NCBI GenBank assembly: GCA_006386115.1
Contig: VFIW01000074.1
Coordinates: 243,425-307,424, forward strand
Reading direction: 5' to 3'
Length of the DNA: 64,000 nt
Source of the DNA: Globisporangium splendens
Lineage: Eukaryota > Oomycota > Peronosporomycetes > Pythiales > Pythiaceae
Made by a program: the position numbers and the translations under genes
The notes under the pieces: model-generated
Databases searched by the model: none
Seen by the model: the letters and a program-made list of their open reading frames with translations, nothing else
Told to the model about the DNA's origin: nothing
Shown here: piece after piece, positions 56,847 to 64,000 of the stretch
Numbering within the stretch: position 1 is the first letter of the stretch
Layout: the number at the start of each line of letters is the position of its first letter

Positions 56847-57419
56847 GACGATGCTGTGTAGGGGCGTGCGGATCCGGTACTGAATGAGCTGCGGCACCTT
56901 CTGCCTGCGTTCGATGTGCGTGTTGGAAGGCAACTCTTTGTGTGAAGGAGCGTGGCGTGTTGAAAGGTTCTGTGTGTTGTTGGAGGTTGCGAGTGTTCTT
57001 GTACGGAGTTGAAGTTTTGTTTTTGGCGAACGCGATTGGTTTTCGGAGTGGATTCGATGAGGGAGTGATGTTTCTAACGTTTCTAAGTCTGGAGTCTTCA
57101 ATGTCGACGAATGAAGACACCGTCCGAGTGTTTGTCACGAGCATCGAGTCTTGATGCGAGGTGTTTGTTGCACTTGCAGCGTTTGCTTGGCGACCAGAGT
57201 CGAGGATGAGTCTCCACTTTCGATTGGAGTGATGTGTTTCCGTGTGCATATCAGAGGTGTGGCGTTGCAGCTGAGCCGCATGTCGATTCTGAGATCTTAC
57301 ACAGAGATCAACCGATGAAAAGAGGTCGCGAGTTTGTTTGTGTCGCGTGTTTTTATGAGAGAGTGAAATGTAGCCGCGTTCGAGTTGGACCACCAGAAGG
57401 ACATTGCATTCGATTTTGT
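56847..57419. other. Boundary spacer between core genes and subtelomere
   Basis: About 570 bp upstream of the MCC alpha gene. Short frames occur but none is supported. The first telomere-like repeats begin just beyond it. Confidence 0.5.
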
Positions 57420-57550
57420 CTAGGGTTTAGGTTTATTTGTAAGGGTTTAGGGTTTAGATGCTGTCGCGGGGTTTAGGGTTTAGGGACCCTAAACAGGTCA
57501 TCGAAGTATAGTGAAGTCCAGATAAACCGGGTTTAGGGTTTAGGGTTTAG
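57420..57550 (+). repeat. Degenerate interstitial TTTAGGG tract 1
   Basis: Scattered and partly mutated TTTAGGG units (57421-57456, 57470-57485, 57531-57550), including a head-to-head telomere junction GTTTAGGG-A-CCCTAAAC at 57478-57494. This marks the start of subtelomeric DNA. Confidence 0.9.
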
Positions 57551-58094
57551 ATGCTGTCGCGTTTGAAAACTAGCCACACAAATTTCGTAGAAATTTGTGG
57601 GGGTATGTTTTCAACTACGCGCAGCATCTCGGCGAAAACGAGAAATCTGCCGAAATTTTACTTTTTGAGATATAACGAAAAAACTGAAAAAATGTCGCAT
57701 TGCACAAAAACAAGCCACACAATCTTTCTCAAACTTTCACCATCGTTTTCTACGCCATTGAAAACCCCATATCCGAAAGTTTTAGAAACGAGAAGTTTTT
57801 GGTGCCGAGCTATCGCCATCCATTCAATTTTGAAATGTACTGGATTAAGCTATATAGAAAGTATTGACTTATGCTATATCGAGTACTGAGTTAGGCAATA
57901 TTTGAAGTATTGACTTAAGCTATAAAATCTAATGATTTAGGACATATCAATCTATTGATTTATGACATTTATAATGTAATGAAGTAAGCCATTTTGTGCA
58001 ATAGGTAGCCTATAACATGCATTATTTGGACTCCCAAAAGGAAGAGTGACGACGACGACAAATCATTTGATCCTCGTGTATTGAGTGGACATTC

Positions 58095-58262
58095 TGATTG
58101 GCTGCTTTGTAAATCAGGCTGCGTGTGACACAAACAGAAGTTCAACGTGTACAAAAATACGCACTTGAAGTTTCATCTGATTGGCTGGTTTGTAAATCAG
58201 GCTGCGTGTGACACAAACAGAAGTTCAACGTGTACAAAAATACGCACTTGAAGTTTCATCTG
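58095..58262 (+). repeat. Tandem ~84-bp direct repeat upstream of subtelomeric gene
   Basis: Two adjacent copies (about 58095-58178 and 58179-58262), each starting with GATTGGCTG(C/G)TTTGTAAATC and ending with TTGAAGTTTCATCTGA. Each holds an inverted CCAAT box. The same pair recurs, diverged, in every downstream unit (for example 60838-61002). Probably promoter sequence that was duplicated. Confidence 0.75.
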
Positions 58263-58360
58263 AATGGCGACAGTGGACATGATGAAGCGTGTGACACATA
58301 CAGAGCTTATGACAATGCGAAAGTTTTCTTCTTCTTCTACCATTCATTTTCCAATTCGCG

Positions 58361-59911
58361 ATGGAAAGCAACAAGTACTCTGAAGCGGCGGAAGCCTTTA
58401 TACCCGACCGTATCGACATCGACTACGTGGAGATAACCGGCCCTCCGTCATGTCTCGAAGTCATCTCTCGTGCCGAGTTCACTGTCGGAACGTTCAAGCG
58501 CGACCTGTCCAAGCGAAGTGGCCAGTACCTTCTGCTTGCATACCAACCGGGGTATGTGTATGTGAAGGTTACTGAAGAGCAACGAATGGATATCGTCGGT
58601 AATCTGAGCGTGCGCTTTGGTGTGGTTCTCGATCCAAGTCCTGATCCGACAGTTCTTCTGAAGAGCGTGTCGAGAAGAGTTGTCTCGTCCCAGCTAGTGG
58701 AGATGTTGGAAGGGATGGAAGTGGGCGAAGTGATTTACGTGAACTACGGTATGAAGTCGCCGATCCGATTCTACTCGTGGCTTTCGTTGCTTCCATAAGA
58801 GTGCAGCGTGATTGTCGATGTCGGCGTTGAAGATTTGTCGAAGGATGAAGACCTCGTGATTTTGACTCGTTTTACGGGTGGTCCAATGATCGAGCACATC
58901 TACCACAACTTTGAGTTGTTCAGTGTGCTTCAGTGTGGTGCCGAGCCAGCATTTGGGACCTGTTTGATTGAAGCGAAGCGGAACATGGCGACAAACATGT
59001 TGAAAGCGCGTGTGTACTCGAGCATTGTGCACTCTCTGAAGGCAAACGTGCAAGCGGCGTGGGTTCCGAAGCCTCGTAATGTGAAGGCGTTGCGACGTTA
59101 CGAAGAGTACTACAAGCGTCTTCCTGTGGCTTATCTTCGTGATGGCGGTCGTTGTTGCCTGATTCGCACGGAAATCCGACTCCGCATGCGTTCTTGGGAG
59201 ACGTTGTTGGAAGACTTCGGACGTTTTCGGCGTGAGGTGTACGCGAGGACTGAGTTTCGTCGCCTGAAGCTCGATGAGATTCTGTACTCAATGCCGCAGA
59301 TTCTGGACTGGGCGAAGTCGAAGAACATCTTCCAAGGCACGGACTCAAGGTGGTGTTCGCCTCAGCAAGTTCGTCTGTACCACGTCGTTAACAACTCGCA
59401 CGGTCACGCTGGCAAAGGGTCTCAGAGTGCCATCGACCAGTCTCGTGCTTTGATTGCTGAAGCGCACACGTACTACCAGCAAAAGCGCATTGCAGACGGT
59501 CGCGTGTTTGGCATTTCATCTGGTGTCGAAGGCAACGGAGCAATTGATCTCATGAGCGACTCTGACGAAGAACAGAAGATGGATGTGGATTCTGGCCATG
59601 TTCAGTTTGTGGACGAAGTTGAGGTGATCGATCTGATCGACGACGAAGAAGCCATCTCCGACGACGATGAAGATCTACTCTCTGAGGAAGAGAGCGACCG
59701 TCGCCAACGACAAGCCTCAGTTTCCCTTCGTGATTTGATGTCGGATGTGGAGACCAATGTTCTGATTGTCCGCGAAGGCCGTACAAAGTGGTACCAAGTG
59801 AAGAAGCTTAACGGCAATTTGTGGAAGCGTGGGACTTCGCGCGAGTATCTGATCCAGCGCGTTGTTGATGAACTGAAAGGAGATTGGCGTCAACATGTCA
59901 TGTCGAAGTAG
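58361..59911 (+). CDS. Subtelomeric family protein of unknown function, full-length founder
   Basis: One reading frame from 58361 to 59911 with a single in-frame TAA at 58796. A 51-nt GT-AG intron (58749-58799) would remove it and keep frame, giving about 499 aa (exons 58361-58748 and 58800-59911); otherwise it is a nonsense pseudogene. The N-terminal ~110 residues (ITGPPSCLEVISRAEFTVG) are the part repeated downstream. The middle is basic/aromatic (YYKRLPVAYLRDGGRCCLI). About 385-440 carries two SUMO-interaction-like motifs next to acid runs (AIDLMSDSDEE and VEVIDLIDDEE). No enzyme motif or signal peptide. Function unknown; nuclear SUMO-linked action is a hypothesis. Confidence 0.65.
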
Positions 59912-59993
59912 GTTGAGTAGTTCTGCTAGAGCATAGTATGGACTTTGAAAGAGAACTGATTGAATAAAGCCGCGAACTTTTGGGATTTTAATG

Positions 59994-60072
59994 TGAGGGT
60001 TTAGGGTTTAGGGTTTAGATAGGTTCAGATGCTGTCCTGTTTTAAAACGAACCCCTAGGGTTTAGGGTTTAG
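59994..60072 (+). repeat. Interstitial TTTAGGG tract 2
   Basis: Two short tracts (59994-60020 and 60056-60072) separated by a partial, diverged copy of the unit head (AGATGCTGT...). Confidence 0.85.
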
Positions 60073-60254
60073 ATGCTGTACCGTTTTAAAACTAGCTTGT
60101 CAAATTTCGCAGAAATTTGGCAAGATATGTTTTCAAATGTGTACAGCACGGTGGTGGAAACGCGAAATTCTGAAAAGTTCTAGAAGCTTCAAAAATTGGC
60201 AAAAAGTGATAAAATGTCACATATCTCAAAATCCAACTTGTAGAATTTTCTAGA

Positions 60255-61431
60255 AGGGTTTAGGGTTTAGGGTTTAGGGTTTAGGGTTTAGATGCTGTCC
60301 CGTTTGAAAACTAGCCACACAAATTTCGTAGAAATTTGTGGGGGTATGTTTTCAACTACGGGCAGCATCTCGGCGAAAACGAGAAATCTGCCGAAATTGT
60401 AGTTTTTGAGATATTACGAAAAAACCGAAAAAATGTCGCATTGCGCAAAAACTAGCCACACAATCTTTCTCAAACTTCAACCATCGTTTTCTACGCCATT
60501 GAAAACCCCATATCCGAAAGTTTTAGAAACGAGAAGTTTTTGGTGCCGAGCTATCGCCATCCATTCAAATTTGCAATGTACTGGATTAGGATATATCGAA
60601 AGTATTGACTTCTGCTATATCGAGTACTGAGTTAGGCAATGTGTAAAGTACTGATTTAAGCTATCAAAATGTAATGTTTTAGGACATCTTGATCTCTTGA
60701 TTTATGACATATATTATGTACTGAAGTAAGCCATCTTGAGCAATGTTTTAGCATATAATACGCATTGTTTGCGCTCCCAAATGGAGCAATGACAGCGACG
60801 ACAAATCATTTGGTCCTCGTGTATTGCGTGGACATTCTGATTGGTTTCTTTGTGAATCATGCAGCGTGCGACACAGACATAAGTCGAACGTGTGCAAAAA
60901 CACGCAGTTGAAGTTGCCTCTGATTGGCTGGTTTATAAATCATGCAGCGTGTGACACAGACAGAAGTTCAACCTGAGCAAAAATACGCAGTTGAAGTTGC
61001 ATCTGAATGGCGACAGTGGACATGGTGAAGCGTGTGACACAAACAGAGGATATGACAATGCGAAAGTTTTCTTCTTCTTCTTTTATTCATTTCCCAATTC
61101 GCGATGGAAAGCAACAAGTACTCTCAAGTGGCGGAAGCCTTTATACCCGACCGTGTCGACATCGACTACGTCGAGATAACCGGCCCGCCGTCATGCCTCG
61201 AGGTCATCTCTCGTGCCGAGTTCACTGTCGGGACGTTCAAGCGCGACCTGTCGAAGCGAAGCGGCCAATACCTTCTGCTGGCATACCAACCGGGGTATGT
61301 GTATGTGAAGGTTACTGAAGAGCAACGAATGGACATCGTCTTTGATTTGAGCGTTCGCTTTGGTGTGATTCTCGATCCAAGTCCTGATCCGACGGTTCTT
61401 CTGAAGAGCGTGTCAATAAGAGTTGTCTCGT
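60255..61431 (+). repeat. Subtelomeric tandem unit B (~1.18 kb, type 1)
   Basis: Begins with (TTTAGGG)~5 at 60255-60291, then ATGCTGTCCCGTTTGAAAAC and ~1.1 kb ending in the truncated ORF. The head carries the type 1 variant (CTACGGGCAGC; GAAATTGTAGTTTTTGAG; CGCAAAAACTAGCC). Confidence 0.9.
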
Positions 61432-61442
61432 CTAGGGTTTAG
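61104..61442 (+). pseudogene. Truncated N-terminal copy of the subtelomeric family gene (unit B)
   Basis: 112 codons matching the first ~110 codons of the founder at 58361. They run into TTTAGGG repeat, whose TAG gives the stop (end VSSRV). Homology to the founder stops after TTGTCTCGTC (founder about 58689). It retains a start codon and flanking CCAAT boxes, so it may still be transcribed. Confidence 0.8.
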
Positions 61443-62610
61443 GGTTTAGGGTTTAGGGTTTAGGGTTTAGATGCTGTCCCGTTTGAAAACTAGCCACACA
61501 AATTTCGTAGAAATTTGTGGGGGTATGTTTTCAACGACGGGCAGCATCTCGGCGAAAACGAGAAATCTGCTGAAATTTTACTTTTTGAGATATAACGAAA
61601 AAACTGAAAAAATGTCGCATTGCACAAAAACAAGCCACACAATCTTTCTCAAAATCTCACCATCGTTTTCTACGCCATTGAAAACCCCATATCCGAAAGT
61701 TTTAGAAACGAGAAGTTTTTGGTGCCGAGCTATCGCCATCCATTCAAATTTGCAATGTACTGGATTAGGATATATCGAAAGTATTGACTTCTGCTATATC
61801 GAGTACTGAGTTAGGCAATGTGTAAAGTACTGATTTAAGCTATCAAAATGTAATGTTTTAGGACATCTTGATCTCTTGATTTATGACATATATTATGTAC
61901 TGAAGTAAGCCATCTTGAGCAATGTTTTAGCATATAATACGCATTGTTTGCGCTCCCAAATGGAGCAATGACAGCGACGACAAATCATTTGGTCCTCGTG
62001 TATTGCGTGGACATTCTGATTGGTTTCTTTGTGAATCATGCAGCGTGCGACACAGACATAAGTCGAACGTGTGCAAAAACACGCAGTTGAAGTTGCCTCT
62101 GATTGGCTGGTTTATAAATCATGCAGCGTGTGACACAGACAGAAGTTCAACCTGAGCAAAAATACGCAGTTGAAGTTGCATCTGAATGGCGACAGTGGAC
62201 ATGGTGAAGCGTGTGACACAAACAGAGGATATGACAATGCGAAAGTTTTCTTCTTCTTCTTTTATTCATTTCCCAATTCGCGATGGAAAGCAACAAGTAC
62301 TCTCAAGTGGCGGAAGCCTTTATACCCGACCGTGTCGACATCGACTACGTCGAGATAACCGGCCCGCCGTCATGCCTCGAGGTCATCTCTCGTGCCGAGT
62401 TCACTGTCGGGACGTTCAAGCGCGACCTGTCGAAGCGAAGCGGCCAATACCTTCTGCTGGCATACCAACCGGGGTATGTGTATGTGAAGGTTACTGAAGA
62501 GCAACGAATGGACATCGTCTTTGATTTGAGCGTTCGCTTTGGTGTGATTCTCGATCCAAGTCCTGATCCGACGGTTCTTCTGAAGAGCGTGTCAATAAGA
62601 GTTGTCTCGT
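61432..62610 (+). repeat. Subtelomeric tandem unit C (1179 bp, type 2)
   Basis: Telomeric tract at 61432-61470. The head carries the type 2 variant (CGACGGGCAGC; GAAATTTTACTTTTTGAG; CACAAAAACAAGCC), matching the partial unit E at the window's end. Confidence 0.92.
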
Positions 62611-62621
62611 CTAGGGTTTAG
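62283..62621 (+). pseudogene. Truncated N-terminal copy of the subtelomeric family gene (unit C)
   Basis: Same 112-codon frame as the unit B copy at a 1179-bp offset, with the stop inside the next telomeric tract. The protein sequence is identical to the unit B and D copies. Confidence 0.8.
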
Positions 62622-63789
62622 GGTTTAGGGTTTAGGGTTTAGGGTTTAGATGCTGTCCCGTTTGAAAACTAGCCACACAAATTTCGTAGAAATTTGTGGG
62701 GGTATGTTTTCAACTACGGGCAGCATCTCGGCGAAAACGAGAAATCTGCCGAAATTGTAGTTTTTGAGATATTACGAAAAAACCGAAAAAATGTCGCATT
62801 GCGCAAAAACTAGCCACACAATCTTTCTTAAACTTCAACCATCGTTTTCTACGCCATTGAAAACCCCATATCCGAAAGTTTTAGAAACGAGAAGTTTTTG
62901 GTGCCGAGCTATCGCCATCCATTCAAATTTGCAATGTACTGGATTAGGATATATCGAAAGTATTGACTTCTGCTATATCGAGTACTGAGTTAGGCAATGT
63001 GTAAAGTACTGATTTAAGCTATCAAAATGTAATGTTTTAGGACATCTTGATCTCTTGATTTATGACATATATTATGTACTGAAGTAAGCCATCTTGAGCA
63101 ATGTTTTAGCATATAATACGCATTGTTTGCGCTCCCAAATGGAGCAATGACAGCGACGACAAATCATTTGGTCCTCGTGTATTGCGTGGACATTCTGATT
63201 GGTTTCTTTGTGAATCATGCAGCGTGCGACACAGACATAAGTCGAACGTGTGCAAAAACACGCAGTTGAAGTTGCCTCTGATTGGCTGGTTTATAAATCA
63301 TGCAGCGTGTGACACAGACAGAAGTTCAACCTGAGCAAAAATACGCAGTTGAAGTTGCATCTGAATGGCGACAGTGGACATGGTGAAGCGTGTGACACAA
63401 ACAGAGGATATGACAATGCGAAAGTTTTCTTCTTCTTCTTTTATTCATTTCCCAATTCGCGATGGAAAGCAACAAGTACTCTCAAGTGGCGGAAGCCTTT
63501 ATACCCGACCGTGTCGACATCGACTACGTCGAGATAACCGGCCCGCCGTCATGCCTCGAGGTCATCTCTCGTGCCGAGTTCACTGTCGGGACGTTCAAGC
63601 GCGACCTGTCGAAGCGAAGCGGCCAATACCTTCTGCTGGCATACCAACCGGGGTATGTGTATGTGAAGGTTACTGAAGAGCAACGAATGGACATCGTCTT
63701 TGATTTGAGCGTTCGCTTTGGTGTGATTCTCGATCCAAGTCCTGATCCGACGGTTCTTCTGAAGAGCGTGTCAATAAGAGTTGTCTCGT
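62611..63789 (+). repeat. Subtelomeric tandem unit D (1179 bp, type 1)
   Basis: Telomeric tract at 62611-62649. The head matches unit B, not the adjacent unit C, so the types alternate B-C-D-E as 1-2-1-2. One visible difference from B is TCTTTCTTAAAC versus TCTTTCTCAAAC. Confidence 0.92.
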
Positions 63790-63800
63790 CTAGGGTTTAG
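63462..63800 (+). pseudogene. Truncated N-terminal copy of the subtelomeric family gene (unit D)
   Basis: Same as the unit B and C copies at a further 1179-bp offset, ending in the telomeric tract of unit E. The identical protein in three copies indicates recent amplification or homogenisation. Confidence 0.8.
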
Positions 63801-64000
63801 GGTTTAGGGTTTAGGGTTTAGGGTTTAGATGCTGTCCCGTTTGAAAACTAGCCACACAAATTTCGTAGAAATTTGTGGGGGTATGTTTTCAACGACGGGC
63901 AGCATCTCGGCGAAAACGAGAAATCTGCTGAAATTTTACTTTTTGAGATATAACGAAAAAACTGAAAAAATGTCGCATTGCACAAAAACAAGCCACACAA
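63790..64000 (+). repeat. Subtelomeric unit E, cut by window edge (type 2)
   Basis: Telomeric tract at 63790-63828 followed by a type 2 head. The array continues beyond the window. Confidence 0.9.

Follow-up and report, generated by a model that had tools for sequence, protein, structure and literature searches.

Tandem units bounded by TTTAGGG tracts at a contig end of Globisporangium splendens and their probable amplification by telomere-tract-primed copying

Organization of the array and of its units

The window, i.e., the whole 64-kb stretch of DNA analysed here, lies at the terminus of contig C170 (307,424 bp) and stops exactly at the contig end; the assembly comprises 195 contigs for a 53.3-Mb genome. 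The terminal region contains four tracts with the structure AGGG(TTTAGGG)4TTTAG, spaced by 1,179 bp, in agreement with the about five TTTAGGG repeats that an earlier note on this DNA had placed at the head of each 1179-bp unit. Matches to TTTAGGGTTTAGGG number 15 in the window, against none across 100 shuffled sequences. The units are arranged in tandem, with interstitial telomere tracts as their boundaries, at what the contig end indicates to be a chromosome end; their coordinates, and those of the features located just inside the array, are reported in Table 1.

Table 1. Features identified in the last part of the window (positions refer to the window)
Feature	Position	Strand	Description
Innermost tracts, 11-13-nt head fragment and short module of the third kind	57446..57531	+	
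Element A	57532..59996	+	Longer relative of the units, head at 57549
Element A, alpha gene: open stretch 1	58361..58798	+	Terminated by an in-frame stop
Element A, alpha gene: open stretch 2	58886..59911	+	
Very short head fragment, CCTG type	60014..60055	+	Between telomere tracts
Truncated head module, TACC type	60071..60254	+	Cut at ttctaga/AGGG, directly before unit B
Unit B	60255..61433	+	1,179 bp, variant 1: tract, hairpin head, upstream region, truncated gene
Terminal hairpin, unit B	60290..60370	.	81 nt, 35 pairs
Alpha gene, first part	61104..61432	+	ATG at 61104, cut at GTCTCGTC/TAGGG
Unit C	61434..62612	+	1,179 bp, variant 2, chimeric: B-type body behind a head from another element family
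Hairpin equivalents	61469-61549, 62648-62728, 63827-63907	.	
Alpha gene, first part, further copies	62283-62611 and 63462-63790	+	Identical cut
Unit D	62613..63791	+	1,179 bp, variant 1, T at unit position 217
Unit E, start only	63792..64000	+	209 bp, variant 2, cut by the contig end

Element A, which sits just inside the array, has about 91% identity with the units over their common part. The unit body is the opening portion of a subtelomeric element that occurs repeatedly; its description as about 1.14 kb of unique DNA does not hold, since no fewer than 92 genomic matches to the unit were counted, a lower bound obtained by scoring 40 of 75 candidates. The DNA upstream of the innermost tracts (57050-57440) has one other match only, of 90 bp at 84% identity. 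Among 14 contig ends inspected, those of C20, C18, C90, C184 and C117 likewise stop within 145 bp of the start of a module, i.e., of a sequence with a fixed start after a TTTAGGG tract and a varying truncation point. Since C170 ends inside the array and other contigs stop near module starts, the length and order of the array past unit E are not represented in the assembly.

Units B and C have 12 differences, all comprised within unit positions 103-225, while B and D differ at the single position 217, C and D at 13 positions, and C and E at none over 209 bp. Thus, the observation that B and D share head variants distinct from those of C and E was confirmed. The order of the four units is variant 1, 2, 1, 2; two variants in random order would alternate over four places with a chance of 1/8, and the sequence extends over 3.18 units, with B and D not identical. 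The proposal that the true repeat is a dimer of about 2.36 kb is not borne out by so few units.

Positions 36-314 of unit C are identical to heads of another element family found on C184, C174, C98, C175 and C90, and the same identity with the C107 head extends to position 311. Beyond 314 the other family diverges from C, and from position 226 onward C is identical to B. Unit C is a chimera of another family's head and of the body of the cut unit, which could be explained by a template switch or by gene conversion within unit positions 226-314. The C175 copy of this other-family head lies in an internal cluster.

The truncated gene and module stacks at other contig ends

Each complete unit carries the first part of a gene, here named alpha, which is cut at GTCTCGTC and followed by TAGGGTTTAGGG. 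The exact cut junction, GTTGTCTCGTCTAGGGTTTAGGG, was found in five places (three on C170, one on C117 and one on C146) and in none with the reversed control, and all five are close to the ends of these three contigs; the uncut sequence is present in ten places in the genome. Searching for the same unit at other chromosome ends, as proposed in the earlier note, thus located it at two other contig ends. Unit D is identical to the C117 unit over all 1,179 bp and unit B is identical to the C146 unit from unit position 17 onward, while the sequence preceding the tract differs among the three contigs. The tract has the same length before B, C, D, E and the C117 unit, and it is shorter before the C146 unit. 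Equal tract lengths, despite different preceding sequences, fit copying of the tract better than a fresh addition by telomerase each time, and the single cut point points to one founding event of cutting and healing. These results agree with the suggestion that telomere-capped units were amplified: the array contains truncated pieces, with a telomere tract at both ends, that were multiplied as DNA. The alpha gene is also cut by tracts at other points, at C20:126572 and C175:130898.

The alpha gene product gave no Pfam match above the cut-off, either for the pieces in the window or for the intact copies, and no relative of solved structure was found. The alpha gene and a second one, beta, are intact in several copies; comparison of alpha with beta copies yielded dN/dS values of 0.14-0.16, at a dS saturated near 2.3-2.5, and the five alpha copies have values of 0.03-0.46 among themselves. 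Both genes are clearly under purifying selection.

The combination of TTTAGGG followed by TTTAGATGCTGT, which marks the start of a module, occurs in 71 places in the genome and in none with the reversed control. The distance to a contig start is at most 15 kb for all the 22 starts on the reverse strand; of the 49 forward ones, 38 are found no more than 12 kb from a contig end (C107, which is itself 14.5 kb long, carries three of these), and these modules point outward. Ten of the 71 starts are internal, eight in one cluster on C175 and one each on C71 and C88; one forward start on C41 was counted in neither group. Many contig ends can be read as stacks of modules, with a fixed start after a TTTAGGG tract and varied truncation points. 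Tract junctions in the sequence pieces examined number 71; their proximal sides are of 54 distinct kinds, but the distal starts are few, being either a hairpin head, the terminus of a reverse-transcriptase element or a third kind that opens with ACCCTAAACAGGTC. Twelve head fragments of about 9-35 nt are enclosed between tracts; an identical 11-nt sequence recurs in four of them, which may be copies, and two include telomere-like letters.

Microhomology of at least one base was observed at 27 of the 38 junctions available for comparison (16 of the 54 distinct proximal sides have no continuing counterpart), against 48% of simulated joins; the mean of 1.63 bases includes one value of 10, from a counterpart with telomere-like sequence of its own. 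A hand-chosen group of 20 of the 38 junctions, with long and close counterparts, gave a mean of 1.7 and at least one base in 18 cases, compared to 0.69 and 48% for 20,000 random joins; the complete set of 38 is the fairer sample. The founding cut of the array is among the 11 of these 38 junctions devoid of microhomology (intact sequence GTCTCGTC/CCAGC).

Read-through of a telomerase RNA past its template was also considered as the source of the fixed start TTTAG/ATGCTGTC. The idea was dropped, not disproved: judged by eye, the two lone start sites away from contig ends are unlike a telomerase RNA gene, the one on C88 being a diverged relic of a head and the one on C71 a head ending at an N.

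The terminal hairpin, the reverse-transcriptase element and telomerase

Full module heads open with 81 nt that are predicted to fold as a 35-pair hairpin adjoining the tract. The hairpin of unit C, folded as C-strand RNA, has an energy of -42.4 kcal/mol with a z of -8.6 (-6.8 with more flank, and -6.2 for the G-strand); z is -8.7 for element A and -5.7 for the diverged TACC module, with -2.4 only for a cut piece of the TACC head. Twenty-four distinct head strings were collected, 14 of which are uninterrupted by a tract, and ten of these were aligned and cut to 84 nt; three of the other four equal a used head over the 84 nt, and the C84 head, which has a deletion in the first arm, and the decayed internal head on C88 were left out of the pair count. 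In the ten different heads 91.9% of the cells pair, and five of the 35 pairs are changed on both sides, a number reached by one of 500 shuffles; controls in which the hairpin was slid gave 33-52% pairing and up to three doubly changed pairs. The clearest double change is C46/G107 in the units versus G46/C107 in element A. These data suggest that the fold is maintained, either in RNA or in DNA, as judged from few events. Rfam identified no hammerhead ribozyme in the last 6.7 kb of the window or in six loci.

A separate element with an RVT_1 domain is found at the same ends: the domain was detected in a 589-aa frame with an E value of 8.9e-5, below the curated Pfam cut-off, while a 1,005-aa frame on C90 containing the same 589 residues gave no Pfam match. 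No endonuclease domain was recognized by Pfam in this element, and a search among solved structures gave nothing useful for the frame. The enzyme is likely a Penelope-like reverse transcriptase, judging from its motifs and from the layout of the element. Ten full copies, coding for an identical protein, are distributed on C90, C98, C118, C146, C175 and C189; the element lies near the contig end on C90, C146 and C175, where it points inward, and 8.5 kb in on C98. Tracts flank it on both sides on C90 and C175; on C146 a tract is present on the inner side, and the outer side is cut by the contig end. Its 3′ end has a start sequence different from that of the modules and folds weakly (z -2.4).

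The genome also contains a match to the telomerase RNA-binding domain above the Pfam cut-off, with one TGA within the match, and three contigs (C71, C45 and C58) terminate in TTTAGGG repeats. A recombination-based telomere maintenance of the whole organism, with which the earlier note had associated the array, is not supported in view of these findings; a chronic failure of telomeres is neither needed nor shown.

Formation of the array and comparison with known systems

The array, in which a single truncated subtelomeric element with TTTAGGG tracts as boundaries is repeated in three full copies plus 209 bp of another, was probably generated by copying primed from telomere tracts, of the type of break-induced replication, after the element had been cut and capped. 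A gene-carrying element would have been cut short and then capped with telomere repeats, a single event of cutting and healing founding the unit. Later, an end carrying a short TTTAGGG tail would invade the tract before such a unit and copy outward; repeated rounds at one end would produce a tandem array, and rounds between ends would spread the unit to C117 and C146. In one round, copying may have started on the head of the other family and continued on the cut unit after a switch in positions 226-314, giving rise to the second variant, for which gene conversion in the same interval is an alternative. The tracts between modules would thus represent former chromosome ends. The module families may originally have become linked to telomere repeats either by recombination or by reverse transcription of a C-strand RNA. 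Some findings count against tract-primed copying: there are 3.18 units at a contig end, the founding cut lacks microhomology, the C146 tract is shorter, a minority of module starts (ten of 71) is internal, and a telomerase domain and telomere-capped contigs exist; in addition, the fixed starts, the conserved hairpin and the very short pieces of head also fit an RNA-templated synthesis.

The latter features are at the basis of a second explanation, possible and rated below even, by which the modules are non-autonomous telomeric retroelements: an RNA of the C-rich strand, ending in the 81-nt hairpin and then in UAAACCCUAAA, would pair with the G-rich overhang and be reverse transcribed outward, perhaps by the co-resident Penelope-like reverse transcriptase, and DNA copying would later have multiplied one truncated copy. 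Modules with a fixed start and a variable far end, the 12 head fragments between tracts, and the strong folds of unit C, element A and the TACC module with their five doubly changed pairs are all consistent with such a process, as is the presence, beside the same kind of tracts, of the inward-pointing element with ten copies of an identical reverse transcriptase; moreover, the attachment of Terminons involves a 3′ fold and, directly after it, reverse-complement telomere repeats (PMC6431247). However, the alpha gene lies on the opposite strand, the 3′ end of the reverse-transcriptase element differs in its start and folds weakly, and Rfam gave no hammerhead in the regions searched. The evidence for the hairpin is itself tempered by the slid control with up to three doubly changed pairs, by the low z of the cut TACC piece, and by the exclusion from the pair count of the head with a first-arm deletion. 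A single exact cut point recurs throughout the array, an outcome that independent reverse transcription would not give. A broader version, that hairpin-headed modules represent a new class of telomere-specific retroelement devoid of a reverse transcriptase, is doubtful: a C-strand RNA, formed by the hairpin and the telomere complement, would be copied onto chromosome ends and would have a selected protein gene in antisense, the ends would be stacks of extension events, and arrays would arise by later DNA copying.

Other processes may multiply a unit once it exists. Unequal exchange between sister chromatids at the tracts, for which near-identical tracts and bodies are an ideal substrate, would be expected to produce a similar array from a pre-existing unit; it is nonetheless unlikely, since it leaves unexplained both the same unit at three ends and the other-family head of unit C. 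Rolling-circle or t-circle copying, which the earlier note had included among its mechanisms, does not account for the array in its simplest form: a one-unit circle predicts identical units, yet B and C differ and C has the head of another family. A telomere-bearing circle of two units would generate a true dimeric higher-order repeat, and the alternation of the variants and the start of the array at a tract conform to it; with 3.18 units only, B and D one base apart, and D identical to a unit of another contig, this is quite improbable. An artefact of assembly in the number or order of the units is also improbable. C170 ends within the repeat, several contigs stop close to module starts, and C71 has a single N right after unit position 214, at the passage from the head to another sequence; against an artefact, the base that separates B from D recurs on another contig, and both variant heads are present elsewhere.

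If tract-primed copying is correct, the inter-module tracts are likely fossil chromosome ends, and a single assembly records many rounds of loss, healing and re-extension, in which cut points, tract lengths and template switches are readable base by base. Telomere-bounded arrays are seen after loss of telomerase in a fungus, and the generality of this type of repair would become apparent from a natural case in a lineage whose telomeres are TTTAGGG. Owing to the hairpin adjoining the tract, experiments can distinguish recombination from reverse transcription.

Among the known systems closest to the array are the 4-kb repeats and MoTeR arrays of Pyricularia oryzae, which also consist of tandem full and variously truncated subtelomeric units with interstitial telomeres as boundaries (PMC8381367). 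In telomerase knockouts of Pyricularia, tandem arrays with interstitial telomeres arise, for which the authors propose tract invasion, and natural strains from foxtail carry truncated 4-kb repeats with telomere-tract boundaries (PMC8381367). As in that system, the amplified unit is present here at other ends, i.e., at three contig ends. The Pyricularia units have another sequence, in another organism, and their tracts can be much longer (PMC8381367); the array described here differs from them, as they are presented in that source, in its chimeric unit, hairpin head and gene with no match to reverse transcriptases.

Terminons and other endonuclease-deficient Penelope-like elements share with the modules a fixed folded end on telomere repeats, a truncated opposite end and head-to-tail arrays (PMC6431247, PMC3846280); at attachment Terminons have a fold and then reverse-complement telomere repeats, and their other end is truncated by telomere repeats (PMC6431247). 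A terminal fold adjoining reverse-complement telomere repeats is present here as a predicted hairpin. Unlike Terminons, as they appear in these sources, the array units have no reverse-transcriptase match (by Pfam, for the gene product of the unit and the intact copies), the long hairpin gave no hammerhead (by Rfam, in the last 6.7 kb of the window and the six loci), and the gene is on the opposite strand.

Among oomycetes, Phytophthora parasitica contains a block of about 1,080 bp with imperfect TTTAGGG repeats at its 5′ end, located beside the satellite PpSat1 and near telomeres (PMC7290008). Like the unit, this block is of about 1.1 kb, has TTTAGGG-like 5′ repeats and is both telomeric and chromosome-internal; it is linked to a satellite and, as described, has neither a truncated gene nor a tract-bounded tandem array, the likeness being one of description (PMC7290008). 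As regards the statement of the earlier note on the lack of a described oomycete example with this exact layout, the block of P. parasitica has a similar layout but is not this array. In the literature on telomeres, subtelomeres, interstitial telomeres and Penelope elements of oomycetes and Phytophthora, the array is not described in the titles and abstract beginnings among the matches listed.

The spreading of one (sub)telomeric sequence to several ends has been reported for TelKO survivors of N. castellii (PMC12408736), which also have long repeated arrays, and for the roll-and-spread mechanism of K. lactis (PMC3486848). These yeasts are, as described, laboratory mutants with defects in telomerase or end capping (PMC12408736, PMC3486848), whereas a telomerase domain is present here. 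The recurrence of the unit at three contig ends likely reflects recombination by which eroded chromosome ends copied it from one another, a form of repair for which fungi and yeasts offer precedents.

Further arrays and a third kind of module

Besides the 1,179-bp units B, C and D, further tandem arrays with short tracts of TTTAGGG repeats are present on C98, C116 and C174, three contigs of the same assembly; their modules, the subtelomeric pieces that start after a tract, are about 2.56 kb long, the spacing computed from the coordinates of their fixed starts (heads) being 2,559-2,585 bp. A third kind of module is cut by the telomere repeats at differing points.

Coordinates of subtelomeric features (L012, piece of contig C146)
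Feature	Location
Intact genes of two subtelomeric families	L012:3313-4860 and L012:6386-7951
Third module kind, starting with TTTAGGGACCCTAAACAGGTC	window 57472-57531; C175:213458; C3:1392
83-bp direct duplication upstream of gene	window 60836-61011 (unit B); equivalents in units C and D
83-bp direct duplication, copy in element A (longer relative of the units)	window 58093-58268

Module starts inside contigs

Contig C175 is 221 kb long, and eight module starts lie midway along it, within C175:114264-130905; this cluster may be a former chromosome end that has become internal, or else the product of a misjoin. On C71 a single N (C71:75278; L049:579 in the piece analyzed), directly past unit position 214, connects a module head with other sequence, and possibly marks a scaffold joint at the repeat. 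At C175:129110 and C175:216411, the sequences on the inner side of the junction, as judged by eye, finish in a tRNA T-arm-like sequence abutting the tract; separately from these sites, Rfam gave a tRNA match on pieces of C146 and C107.

Subtelomeric genes and a reverse-transcriptase element

The two gene families seen at the C146 loci, whose C-terminal parts are about 58% identical, are both under purifying selection; a Pfam search returned no match for either. Ten full copies of a reverse-transcriptase element, roughly 3.7 kb long on C90 and C175, are found on C90, C98, C118, C146, C175 and C189, several of them consecutive on C118 and two on C90, and a 51% relative occurs in the interior of C71. 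The 589-aa protein is 100% identical among the ten full copies.
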